This document shows positions 34,488-39,172 of a stretch of 64,000 nucleotides of DNA, one piece after another. Below the pieces are notes generated by a model. The model made no database searches, was not told the origin of the DNA, and saw only the letters and a list, made by a program, of their open reading frames with translations. Origin of the DNA: Acidobacteriota bacterium (GTDB taxonomy: Bacteria > Acidobacteriota > Blastocatellia > Pyrinomonadales > Pyrinomonadaceae); assembly GCA_025463135.1 (NCBI GenBank), contig JAOAPY010000030.1, positions 1 to 64,000 of the forward strand. Direction: 5' to 3'. A program made the translations under genes and the position numbers. The number at the start of each line of letters is the position of its first letter. Positions within the stretch are counted from its first letter, which is position 1.

Positions 34488-34718
34488 GTTACATCCCTCC
34501 GTTTCTAATTTATCCCGTTGAAAAAGATGTGCCAACCGGAATCCGCGATCTGGGAACGTTTGACGAATTTTTCATTCAAAACCTGGAGACAATTAGAAGT
34601 CTAAATCGCAGTCCTCCAATCACGAGTACAGTGACACGTCTCCAAATGAACAATGTCGAGCGGGTGCAGGATTTGAATTTCCGTACTCACTCTCGGATAA
34701 CAAGTGAAAGGTACTACC

Positions 34719-36098
34719 ATGAAATCAGCAGCCGCCAGCCGCGAAAAAGAGTCACCACAGCTCGGGTGGTCGAGTGTTTCCCCACAAAGAAGCGCCCGCT
34801 CGCGACATCGTTTCCGCTACGACGTTTTGCTCGGGCGCAGTGTTGAATCTTCGCACCGCGTCGGCTTTTGCAGCGAACAATCGGCTTCGACCGGCAATGC
34901 GCTGATTACTCATTCTTCTGAAGGAAACCTCGTGACTATCGGCAAGACTGGGAGCGGCAAGGGTCGATCAGCTTTGATTCCCAACCTGGTAACCTATCGC
35001 GGTTCGACGATTGTTTTGGATCTGAAGGGCGAGTTGTATCGCACCACCTTTCGGGCGCGTCGTGAAATGGGCCAGCGAGTTTTCCTTCTCGATCCTTTCA
35101 ATCAGATATCAGCCGATCCCGATCGTCTCAATTTCTTTGACTTGTTGACACTCACAGGCAATGAAGAGATTGACACCGAAGCCCAGAGTCTGGCCCACAT
35201 CTTTGGCCGTGAGAATAGCGTCAAAGATCCCTTCTGGGATATCGAGGGGACCGGGCTGCTTGCCGGATGCATTTCCGCCGTTGCGACAATGAATCCGCCG
35301 GAACTCCAAAACTTTCGCGCCCTTATTGGAATGTTCATGGCGGACGACATTGTCTACTCTCTGGCCACCATAATGGATAAGCGCAGCAGGGAGATGACGC
35401 CTATGGCGCGGCACGAGATTGGCTCTTTCCTGAGTCTCGCCGACGTCACGCGCAGCGGCGTTCTCGCTACGGCCACCAGCTATCTGAAAACCTACACCAG
35501 TGAACAAATAATTCGTAGCTTGTGCGATTCAACCATCAGCCTGCCGGAACTCATCGCCGGCAAAACTCCGTTCACCATTTATGTCGTGATCCCACCGGCA
35601 TACATCAGATCCCATTTCAACATCGTGAAAGCGTGGGTGCATACATTGATGAAGGCATTGATGACTCGGAAGGAAATTCCGGAGACACCGACCCTATTCT
35701 TTCTAGACGAAATCGCGCAGGGAACTCTTCCTATATTGGAAAATATCATGACCATCGGACGCGGTTATGGAATCAAGTGTTGGCTTTTCCTCCAAAATAT
35801 CAATCAGCTCAAGGCCCGCTACCAGACTGGCTGGGCGACCATGTTGGGGAATTGTGACGTGTGGCAAATTTTCGCCGCCAATGATCATTTGACGGCTAAG
35901 GAGTTGTCTGAAGTTACAGGAATAGCACCAGCGAGCTTTTTAACGATGCAGCGAAACGAGCAGTATCTGGTGATCAATGGTCTGATACAAAAAGGCCGGA
36001 AGCTCGATTACTTAACCGATCCAATGTTCGCGGGACTCTTTGACGACAACCCCTACTACAAGATGCTACGGCGCCGTAGGAATCGCGGTAACACTTAA
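34719..36098 (+). CDS. Orphan VirD4/TraG-type coupling-protein ATPase
   Basis: The 459-residue protein has the T4CP core: Walker A in [18 protein letters not shown], followed by the family-typical [13 protein letters not shown]. Walker B is [10 protein letters not shown], and sensor-like segments are [10 protein letters not shown] and [12 protein letters not shown]. VirD4-family proteins pump DNA or protein substrates into type IV secretion channels. This one lacks the usual N-terminal membrane helices and is about 150-200 residues short of VirD4. No relaxase or T4SS gene is in the window. It is followed at 101 nt by dcd. The ATG at 34719 has AAAGG upstream. Confidence 0.85.
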
Positions 36099-36198: not shown

Positions 36199-36765
36199 AT
36201 GGCAGTCAAAGCAGATAAGTGGATTCGAAGAATGGCCCTCGAACACGGGATGATCGATCCCTTCGAACCCGGCCAGGTAAAGGAGTTTGATGGCCGGCGC
36301 ATCGTCTCGTACGGCACCTCCAGCTATGGTTACGACATCCGCTGTGCCGACGAGTTCAAGTTGTTCACAAACATCAACAGCACCATCGTCGATCCCAAAG
36401 AGTTCGATGAGAAGAATTTTGTGGACGTCAAAGCTGATTTCGTGATCATTCCACCGAACAGTTTTGCGCTCGCGCGCACGGTTGAATACTTTCGCATACC
36501 CAGAAACGTATTGACGATTTGTCTGGGGAAGAGCACCTACGCCCGTTGCGGCATTCTGGTAAACGTGACCCCATTCGAACCCGAGTGGGAGGGCTACGTC
36601 ACCCTGGAGTTCTCCAATACCACTCCACTGCCCGCGAAAATTTACGCCAACGAGGGCGTGGCCCAGGTGGTCTTTTTTGAATCCGACGAAGTCTGCGAAA
36701 CCTCCTACAAAGATCGCGGCGGCAAATACCAGGGCCAGCGCGGCGTCACTCTGCCCAAGATGTGA
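36199..36765 (+). CDS. dcd: dCTP deaminase
   Basis: Dcd deaminates dCTP to dUTP, feeding the Dut reaction to dUMP for thymidylate synthesis. The 188-residue product has exact family length and shows [32 protein letters not shown] (catalytic Glu in the FEPEWEG segment), [10 protein letters not shown] and FFESDEVCE. The ATG at 36199 was selected because an in-frame upstream extension overlaps the previous gene. dut lies 2 kb downstream, with a peptide-modification operon inserted between. Confidence 0.97.
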
Positions 36766-36932
36766 GGATGTCGGTTCTCATAGTAAACGAAAGTCATTTA
36801 TCCAAAACAGGTCTATTCAAATAATCGGGTTGTGGTGTATGCTGTTTGTACTTTGAAGTGTGAAAGGTAACCCTTACTTTTTCAAACACCCGACGATTTT
36901 CAAATCACCCTACAGGAGAGAGAGAGACGAAA

Positions 36933-37178
36933 ATGCCTAAATCAACAACGGCTGAGGTTCGCTTAAAAAAGGTGGGGCCAAATGGCATCCCGCTCGCTGA
37001 AATTCTGATCGATAACAGTGTCTCCGCAACTCAGTTGGGCGCGATTGTGCAACGCGTCACGCGAGACAAGGATCTTCTGAAGAAGCTGGGATTGAAGGCC
37101 TGCGCGGGATGCAAGTCCGGTTTCGACATCAACATTCGCGACCGCTTTGAGCACGTCCTAACGGTCGACGTACACTAA
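36933..37178 (+). CDS. Putative RiPP precursor peptide of an MNIO operon
   Basis: The 81-residue protein starts at an ATG with a good AGGAGAGAG ribosome-binding site. The N-terminal ~50 residues look like a leader (AEILIDNSVSATQLGAIVQR, helical and acidic/basic). The C-terminal ~25 residues hold the only two cysteines, Cys57 and Cys60, in KACAGCKSGF, then DINIRDRFEHV and LTVDVH. Four bases after its stop begins a DUF692/MNIO gene. A leader plus Cys-containing core upstream of an MNIO enzyme is the layout of copper-binding and bufferin-type RiPPs. The modification is unknown, and no match to a named precursor family could be made. Confidence 0.72.
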   Translation: MPKSTTAEVRLKKVGPNGIPLAEILIDNSVSATQLGAIVQRVTRDKDLLKKLGLKACAGCKSGFDINIRDRFEHVLTVDVH

Positions 37179-37182
37179 ATCG

Positions 37183-38094
37183 GTGGCCAGTAGAAATACT
37201 CCACCACAACCGGGGGTTGGTGTACTTTTCAATCCCAGCATGGATCGTTTTGTCGAACGGTCGCTTGACCAACTCGACTATCTCGCGGTAAGCCCGGACC
37301 GGGCCTGGATCGATAACGGTTTAGGATCTGCAAACAGGTTCGAACCTTTGCCTTTGATGGCCGCCTTACTCGATGAGGCGGCCCGCGAGTTACCGATTGT
37401 GCTGCACGGCGTGGGACTCTCGATCTGCAGTGCTGAAATTTTTGACAAAGAATACGCTCAGAACTTAATCGACTGGGCCAACCGTTTAGGTTCACCGTGG
37501 ATTAGCGAACATTTATCGTTTTCTCGCATTGGCCTGGGGCACGAAGTTAACTCCGCCGTTGCCCTGCCGGTTCCCTACGACGAAGAAAGTCTGAATCTAT
37601 TGATTCCACGCGTCCGGTTCCTGACGGACACCCTCAGCTGTCCCTTCTTACTCGAGAACAACGTTTACTATTTCAATTATTTAGAGCAGACATTTTCTGA
37701 AGGAGCTTTTTTGAATGAGCTCTGCCGGCAGACAGGGTGTAGTGTGTTACTCGATCTGCACAACCTCTATACGAATGCCGTCAACCACAGCTTCGACGCC
37801 CTTGAATATATCAACGAGTTGAATCTTGAAAACGTGCGCGAGATTCACGTAGCGGGCGGTGTGCGCATGATGGGATTTCACACGGACTCGCACACCGGTC
37901 CCGTGCTCGACAGCGTGTGGGAGTTGCTCGAACACACCGTACCGCTCACGCCTAATCTTCAAGGCGTTACTTTTGAGTTTCACGAGTCATCCTTCGGCCG
38001 GCTGGGTGAAGAAGGCATCCTCGAACAAGTGGAGCACGCTCGGTCCATTGTGAATAATCATGTCACTGCAAGCCTTTCAGCGAGCTCTCGTTGA
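37183..38094 (+). CDS. DUF692 / multinuclear non-heme iron oxidase (MNIO) peptide-modifying enzyme
   Basis: MNIOs (MbnB, BufB, TglH relatives) use two or three iron ions to oxidise residues, often cysteine, in ribosomal peptides. The 303-residue TIM-barrel protein shows the family ligand pattern: His75 (LHGVGLS), Glu109-His110 (ISEHLSF), Glu158 (LLENN), Asp191-His193-Asn194 (LLDLHNLYTNAVNH), His222 (IHVAGG), Asp235 and His237 (TDSHTGPV), Glu265 (FEFHES). The start is GTG at 37183, 4 nt after the precursor stop. It overlaps the partner gene by 35 nt. Family assignment is strong; the reaction is inferred. Confidence 0.88.
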   Translation: MASRNTPPQPGVGVLFNPSMDRFVERSLDQLDYLAVSPDRAWIDNGLGSANRFEPLPLMAALLDEAARELPIVLHGVGLSICSAEIFDKEYAQNLIDWANRLGSPWISEHLSFSRIGLGHEVNSAVALPVPYDEESLNLLIPRVRFLTDTLSCPFLLENNVYYFNYLEQTFSEGAFLNELCRQTGCSVLLDLHNLYTNAVNHSFDALEYINELNLENVREIHVAGGVRMMGFHTDSHTGPVLDSVWELLEHTVPLTPNLQGVTFEFHESSFGRLGEEGILEQVEHARSIVNNHVTASLSASSR

Positions 38095-38692
38095 CCTCAC
38101 CCTCGCTCCGCGTCAAACCCGCCGCTTGATTTGCGGCGACTTGACCATACTTGAGCCCTACGATCTGGATGAGCGCGAATTGCGGCGGCTGTTGGATGTG
38201 GTGCAACAGCCGGGCATGTCTCTTAATTGCACCATCGCTCGCGGAAACCGTTTTGATGCAATTGGGGAAATCTTTCCCATGACCTGCGTGCTGCTCGAGC
38301 CGGTGTTGCGCGATCTTCTGGACGAATTGTGGGAGAGTCATCGTCCCACGAATTATCAATTTGCCGGAGAAGAAGAGGCCTTTGCCGGCATCGTACGGCG
38401 GAAGCTTGAAAGTGGTGAAGTTTCGATTCCGTATCTCGATGAAATCTTCGCTTACGAATGTCTCTGCTGGGAGCTGGCCCAGCACATGCGCAACCAAGCC
38501 GAAACCGACATCGAGGTTTCGGCCATAATTGAATTTCAACACCCGCCGGACTTATTGCTACCGCCCTTGAGCGAATTGACAGCACCGCCGCCGGGATTAC
38601 CAGAAGGCGTCTATCGCTCTCGTCTGACTTTGCGCGGAACGCGTTTTCACGTGGAAACGCTCTCCGGCGAAGAGGCAGATCCCGCAATCTGA
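38060..38692 (+). CDS. MNIO partner protein (DUF2063/MbnC-like position)
   Basis: The 210-residue protein begins 35 nt inside the end of the MNIO gene. The N-terminal third is helical (SLQAFQRALVDLTLAPRQTRR), then LDERELRRLLDVV and RFDAIGEIFPMTCVLLEP, then a Glu-rich C-terminal part with PPDLLLPPLSEL and GVYRSRLTLRG. Partner proteins of this size (MbnC, BufC, DUF2063) bind the precursor leader and assist the MNIO. The assignment is mainly by context, because sequence-level identity to a named family is not something I can verify here. Overlap implies translational coupling. Confidence 0.65.
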   Translation: MSLQAFQRALVDLTLAPRQTRRLICGDLTILEPYDLDERELRRLLDVVQQPGMSLNCTIARGNRFDAIGEIFPMTCVLLEPVLRDLLDELWESHRPTNYQFAGEEEAFAGIVRRKLESGEVSIPYLDEIFAYECLCWELAQHMRNQAETDIEVSAIIEFQHPPDLLLPPLSELTAPPPGLPEGVYRSRLTLRGTRFHVETLSGEEADPAI

Positions 38693-38737: not shown

Positions 38738-39172
38738 ATGGACACTGAAACAGAAACACTGGAATTCCAAAGACTCGACCCAGAGGCAGTGCTGCCGACA
38801 CGCGGCAGTGCCGCCGCGGCCGGACTGGATCTTTACTCCATTGAGCCGGTGAGGTTGGAACCAGGAGATAGAGTTTTGGTGCGCACGGGTTTAGCGGTGG
38901 CTATCCCGGAGGGTTTCTATGGCCGGGTCGCGCCACGTTCCGGCCTGGCCACGAAAAATGGACTGGATGTGCTAGCAGGTGTTATCGACGCTGATTATCG
39001 CGGCGAGATTCGTTGTCTCATTTACAACACCGGCAAGGAACCCATCGAGCTAACCGCCCAAACAAAAATCTGCCAATTAATTGTTGAGAGAATTGTTACT
39101 CCTCGCGCCGTATGGGCTGAGGAACTCCGCGAAACTGAGCGGGGCGCAGGCGGGTTCGGATCAACTGGATAA
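38738..39172 (+). CDS. dut: dUTP diphosphatase
   Basis: Dut hydrolyses dUTP to dUMP, keeping uracil out of DNA and supplying thymidylate synthase. The 144-residue trimeric enzyme shows the five motifs: AAGLDLYS (motif I), PRSGLATKNGLDVLAGVIDADYRGE (II-III, described by its key residues Ser, Gly, Asp and Tyr), TKICQLIVERI (IV) and RGAGGFGSTG (V). The ATG is used. It completes the dcd-dut pair around the MNIO operon. Confidence 0.97.
   Translation: MDTETETLEFQRLDPEAVLPTRGSAAAAGLDLYSIEPVRLEPGDRVLVRTGLAVAIPEGFYGRVAPRSGLATKNGLDVLAGVIDADYRGEIRCLIYNTGKEPIELTAQTKICQLIVERIVTPRAVWAEELRETERGAGGFGSTG

Follow-up and report, generated by a model that had tools for sequence, protein, structure and literature searches.

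A candidate minimal three-gene MNIO cassette with a CxxCxSG precursor in an acidobacterial genome

MNIO enzymes use iron to perform unusual reactions on peptides, and to our knowledge the branches of the family that have been characterised cover only part of it. The iron ligands of the pearlin enzyme TglH are His71, His107, Glu151, Asp184, Asn187, His216, Asp229, His231 and Glu258 (PMC10880893). By homology, the substrate coordinates Fe1 through a cysteine, and activation of O2 takes place at that iron (PMC8888699, PMC10880893). In the methanobactin enzyme MbnB the aspartate two residues after the last glutamate ligand, Asp240, is the proposed general base. The closest described precursors are those designated adjamnio-7 by Antoine et al. 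(2025, PMC12452194), who list them in silico as CxxC proteins without a signal peptide that accompany MNIO cluster #7, with an example from Novilysobacter. Within the literature searched the term adjamnio-7 is confined to that paper, and no chemistry was found reported for it.

The locus described here lies in the window, the whole 64,000-nucleotide stretch of acidobacterial DNA that was analysed. Its open reading frames place a putative precursor gene, an MNIO gene and the gene of a partner protein, in that order, between dcd and dut. The coordinates in the earlier note on this DNA have been confirmed: an 81-residue peptide with its only two cysteines, C57 and C60, in KACAGCKSGF is followed by a 303-residue MNIO that starts 4 nt past the precursor stop and by a 210-residue partner whose frame overlaps that of the MNIO by 35 nt. 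The features, with what each rests on, are:

36199..36765, + strand: dcd (dCTP deaminase), left neighbour, outside the system (Pfam, relatives' loci)
36914..36918, + strand: AGGAG, possible ribosome-binding site of the precursor gene (by eye)
36933..37178, + strand: putative precursor gene, 81 aa (ORF, alignment, AlphaFold pLDDT 72, dN/dS)
37101..37121, + strand: codons of the CAGCKSG core, C57 to G63 (34-member alignment)
37183..38094, + strand: MNIO (DUF692, PF05114) modification enzyme, 303 aa, GTG start (Pfam, alignments, tree)
38060..38692, + strand: MNIO partner protein, 210 aa (predicted fold, no Pfam match)
38738..39172, + strand: dut (dUTPase), right neighbour, outside the system (Pfam, relatives' loci)
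Predicted parts of the precursor, in residues: leader ~8-51, CxxCxSG core 57-63, follower strand 65-81

The MNIO is the only one in its source genome, and the GC content of the cassette is unremarkable. A gene for a TraG/VirD4-type conjugative coupling protein (window 34704-36098) stands directly upstream of dcd; in two other genomes, G009 and G002, it does not adjoin dcd.

The reading preferred here, to which we assign a probability of roughly 0.78 on the strength of sequence comparison, is that these genes constitute a minimal MNIO RiPP cassette in which the 81-residue protein would be the substrate, oxidised at the cysteines of its core. The N-terminal two-thirds of the precursor would be recognised by the complex of MNIO and partner, and one or both of the CxxCxSG cysteines would reach Fe1 and undergo oxidation with O2.

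Sixty related genomes, together with a sample of 396 genomes from the phylum, yielded a few close enzymes; one, 63% identical, lies in the same three-gene order. A scan of a genome collection with a profile built from four enzyme sequences retrieved 67 loci. The best matches (64-70% identity) come from Bryobacterales, Solibacteraceae and other Acidobacteriota, with Archangium at 56%; then follow Bradyrhizobium, Nostoc, Brasilonema, Taibaiella, Lysobacter, Sphingomonas, Hydrogenophaga, an actinomycete and a planctomycete. In a maximum-likelihood tree, the backbone of which is not fully resolved between subclades and which puts L117 and L079 on long branches, the window enzyme belongs to a 40-member clade from seven phyla (support 96/96) and, nested in it, to a nine-member subclade of Acidobacteriota and Archangium (100/98). 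The order precursor-MNIO-partner is the same in relatives from all seven phyla, among which the cassette is scattered. Scanning viral contigs with the MNIO turned up no relatives. Matches on plasmids were rejected as relatives: their identity stays under 60%, and both of the annotated ones examined proved to be bufferin operons.

Several groups in the scan differ in their precursors. A sister MNIO clade (L088, L091, L092, L105, L106) has CxxCGR for CxxCxSG in the upstream peptides of L088, L091 and L092 and CTTCGL in that of L106; at L105 no such upstream peptide was seen. A group from Corallococcus and Citreicoccus (L093, L095-L103) has a partner gene at most loci and no recognisable CxxC precursor directly upstream. 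At L024 (1146-1310), in a relative from the same family, a 54-aa peptide ending CGGCSGCALPGCSTCSVDGD precedes a different MNIO and itself follows a gene resembling that of a zinc-metalloprotease membrane protein.

An upstream frame encoding CxxCxSG is present in 39 of the 40 clade members, with CxCxSG in the 40th (L117); the strict count is 37, to which L066 and L082, masked by over-long calls of the enzyme frame, have been added. These frames were found even though the precursor formed no part of the query, and the controls yielded 7 in 2000 shuffled upstream sequences, 1 in 40 antisense and 0 in 40 downstream. Pairwise dN/dS for the precursor is ~0.2-0.25 in most pairs of homologues (0.43 in one cyanobacterial pair, very close and differing by few changes), as under purifying selection. 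Taken together with the shuffled controls, these ratios argue that the precursor is a real, constrained gene. The earlier note had singled out the CxxC as the core, and the alignment of 34 precursors bears this out, for its only invariant columns are Met1, C57, C60, S62 and G63. Within the near group, the commonest residue at a position has a mean frequency of 0.81 over residues 55-64 and of 0.62-0.67 over leader and follower (0.62-0.66 for the leader), so the core is better conserved than the leader. Nor do homologues occur away from an MNIO: a precursor profile, which misses divergent members such as that of G402, found no orphan in 396 genomes of the phylum, its strong matches being confined to G000 and G266, where in each case the enzyme is adjacent. 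Four further weak matches were dismissed as chance frames. Orphan homologues and a core no better conserved than the leader were the outcomes that, by the earlier note, would count against its reading; in these comparisons neither was observed.

The claim that the precursor lacks a signal sequence also stands, on a hydropathy test rather than SignalP: there is no N-terminal hydrophobic segment, and the highest mean hydropathy over any 10 residues of the N-terminal part is 1.39. The precursor does not match DUF2282; a match to the Nif11 leader (E 0.23) was discarded as insignificant. An AlphaFold model of moderate confidence (pLDDT 72) predicts a strand-strand-helix leader, then the core, then a follower strand; a fold search with this model gave no significant match, and a PDB profile search with the sequence gave none. 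In the acidobacterial/Archangium branch the core reads [AG]CxxCxSG[FL][DN], with a leader of its own and a conserved follower strand.

The window enzyme belongs to PF05114 (MbnB_TglH_ChrH; E 2.7e-57, 194.5 bits against a cut-off of 25). The counterparts of the TglH ligands are H75, H110, E158, D191, N194, H222, D235, H237 and E265; eight of the nine were aligned directly (TglH, 3BWW), while TglH Glu258 falls outside the aligned TglH stretch, its counterpart E265 being conserved in every MNIO compared. An iron cluster would be expected to form. The earlier assertion of a full set of metal ligands holds for these nine; Glu109 and His193, which it also counted, are conserved neighbours that are not ligands in TglH. 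The position of MbnB Asp240 is occupied by His267. It is Asp in 21 of 21 reference MNIOs compared, and in the clade it is His in 14 members, Phe in 19 and Asp in only three, those of Taibaiella. TglH likewise has no equivalent of the MbnB-type Asp. The DLHN motif is kept in the window enzyme; since the searches used DLHN as one of their patterns, its conservation across the clade is by construction, whereas the replacement of the Asp is not. Next to the first histidine ligand the enzyme reads H75-G-V-G, so that the essential Asn73 of TglH is absent.

Without the catalytic Asp of MbnB, the clade cannot be assumed to carry out the thiooxazole/oxazolone chemistry known from bufferins and methanobactins; with Asn73 missing as well, neither of the described cysteine chemistries is simply transferable, and the chemistry of the clade may differ from that of MbnB. 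A rival reading is that the small protein buffers copper in the cytosol in the manner of a bufferin, both of its cysteines being converted to thiooxazole or oxazolone-thioamide groups that bind Cu(I). Bufferins and methanobactins do use a paired-cysteine core modified by an MNIO (PMC12452194), and the iron ligands are kept. We nevertheless consider this unlikely: the precursor has no signal peptide; DUF2282 and DUF2063 go unmatched; the enzyme scores 174 bits on the BufB equivalog (cut-off 310) and 22 bits on that of MbnB (cut-off 325), far under the BufB, HvfB and MbnB cut-offs; the catalytic Asp has become His; and no metal genes recur nearby.

The partner protein has no Pfam match, DUF2063 included, and a PDB profile search found none. 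Its predicted fold, from a confident AlphaFold model (pLDDT 91), has as its five best solved matches TglI (Z 11.6 and 11.1), NGO1945 (9.2) and MbnC (6.7 and 6.4), well above unrelated entries in the fold search. A predicted DUF2063/TglI-like fold without the DUF2063 signature, encoded after the MNIO, fits PME-type 2, partners which Antoine et al. (PMC12452194) link to precursors lacking signal peptides. The proposal that precursor, MNIO and partner form one system is upheld by this fold and by the recurring gene order. A related group (L094, L104, L107-L112) encodes MNIO and partner region as a single fusion protein, 466-502 aa long; precursors of that group have LGCxACCSG-type cores, most with a second, ACATG-like motif.

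That TglI is the nearest match to the partner's fold would also suit a pearlin-like reaction, in which the MNIO excises the cysteine beta-carbon or frees a small cysteine-derived product from a carrier peptide, as TglHI does, and so would the retained DLHN (among the search patterns though it was) and the absence, as in TglH, of the MbnB Asp. Yet the cysteines are internal, genome-encoded and succeeded by a conserved follower, the cassette has no PEARL ligase, Asn73 is absent and TglH stands on a separate long branch of the tree; such a reaction is distinctly improbable.

The strongest argument that CxxCxSG is the modified core is that leaders vary while the core stays constant. In Nostoc and Brasilonema the core is preceded by a double-glycine leader, weakly matching CTB-family bacteriocin and ComC models; Lysobacter-type precursors stop shortly past GCRPCLSGLDRF; and Taibaiella has another, unrelated leader, with tandem copies of the precursor at two of three loci. 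The tandem precursors upstream of the MNIO at L072 and L090 carry CCPGCRSGANN and CCPACLSGANN/CCPACLSGVNN. The CxxC could be the ordinary metal or redox site of an unmodified protein, but that the small protein is a metal-delivery or redox accessory of the MNIO rather than its substrate is very improbable, for although the predicted, partly folded strand-strand-helix-CxxC-strand structure and the confinement of invariance, Met1 apart, to CxxCxSG would accord with it, its N-terminal part is wholly replaced in cyanobacteria and in Taibaiella and tandem copies occur, and leader replacement and tandem copies are typical of substrates.

If the 81-residue protein is the substrate of an oxidising MNIO cassette, as we prefer to read it, the nature of the product is a separate matter. 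We lean slightly toward a cysteine-centred oxidation other than the MbnB/bufferin-type heterocycle (thiooxazole or oxazolone-thioamide); that heterocycle is rather doubtful, and a target other than cysteine is improbable. The role most likely, though we hold it loosely, is that of a putative intracellular or locally released small protein handling thiols or metal.

The earlier note also saw meaning in the location between dcd and dut, and this has had to be given up. In G009 and G002, whose dcd genes are 93% and 84% identical to that of the window, the cassette is absent from between dcd and dut, and the gap measures 73 nt and about 225 nt, respectively, as compared with 1,972 nt in the window. 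The adjacency of the pair in those genomes indicates that the cassette was inserted into it or, less probably, lost from it. Neither gene is near the cassette in the eight closest relatives, with flanks inspected to about 4 kb. Judged by these comparisons the setting is incidental; a link to dUTP metabolism was rejected, given the cassette-free pairs and the relatives that lack dcd and dut nearby. Across the nine nearest loci no flanking gene recurs, save for a weak match of a large ORF between L053 and L056, and no exporter, protease or metal gene is common to them; the larger neighbours at other loci are unrelated. The closest enzymes are mostly those of Bryobacterales/Solibacteraceae (Terriglobia), not of the window's own family, which in the genomes sampled has only distant MNIOs. 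Along with the insertion, this suggests that the cassette was acquired horizontally.

The whole seven-phylum clade has one invariant four-residue signature and a very small gene set, and it differs from the bufferin and methanobactin enzymes at a residue important for their proposed mechanism. A further-reaching proposition can be put forward only tentatively: a distinct, multi-phylum, Asp-less MNIO clade would install an undescribed cysteine modification on the CxxCxSG core, which in the acidobacterial branch would be carried by a small folded protein that also has a conserved follower, and the cassette would move as a bare three-gene unit. With three genes and a soluble substrate of 81 aa, expression should be easy, which makes the chemistry of the clade directly testable.

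How the locus stands to the known systems can be stated compactly. With methanobactin (MbnA/MbnB/MbnC) it shares a precursor without signal peptide, paired cysteines and related folds of enzyme and partner; it differs in its MbnB score, in the replacement of Asp240 and in a cassette without transporter genes. Bufferins (BufA/BufB/BufC, the captophorins) have the same order of precursor, MNIO and partner and a cysteine motif as the likely target; the window system differs from them in having no signal peptide, no DUF2282, a partner without the DUF2063 signature of PME-type 1, His for the catalytic Asp, and no DoxX, sigma factor or metal genes. In the pearlin system (TglA/TglH/TglI), too, an MNIO that has the iron ligands and lacks the MbnB-type Asp is paired with a partner whose fold is shared (Z 11.6), but its cysteine is appended at the C-terminus by PEARL, in contrast to an internal, encoded CxxC, and Asn73 is missing here. 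Adjamnio-7 (PMC12452194) resembles the window system in its CxxC precursor without signal peptide adjoining an MNIO, so that the word undescribed in the earlier note fails for the in silico description; it stands for the chemistry, none being reported in the literature searched. Since Lysobacteraceae members with CxxCxSG precursors (L073, L081, L083) fall within the clade of the window enzyme, and the adjamnio-7 example is from Novilysobacter, the two are probably of the same broad family, by comparison of descriptions rather than by alignment, the acidobacterial/Archangium branch being set apart by its own leader, core and follower strand. As far as has been checked, the new elements are that branch, the occurrence of CxxCxSG as a signature in seven phyla, the cyanobacterial leader swap, the absence of the Asp and a dcd-dut site without the cassette.
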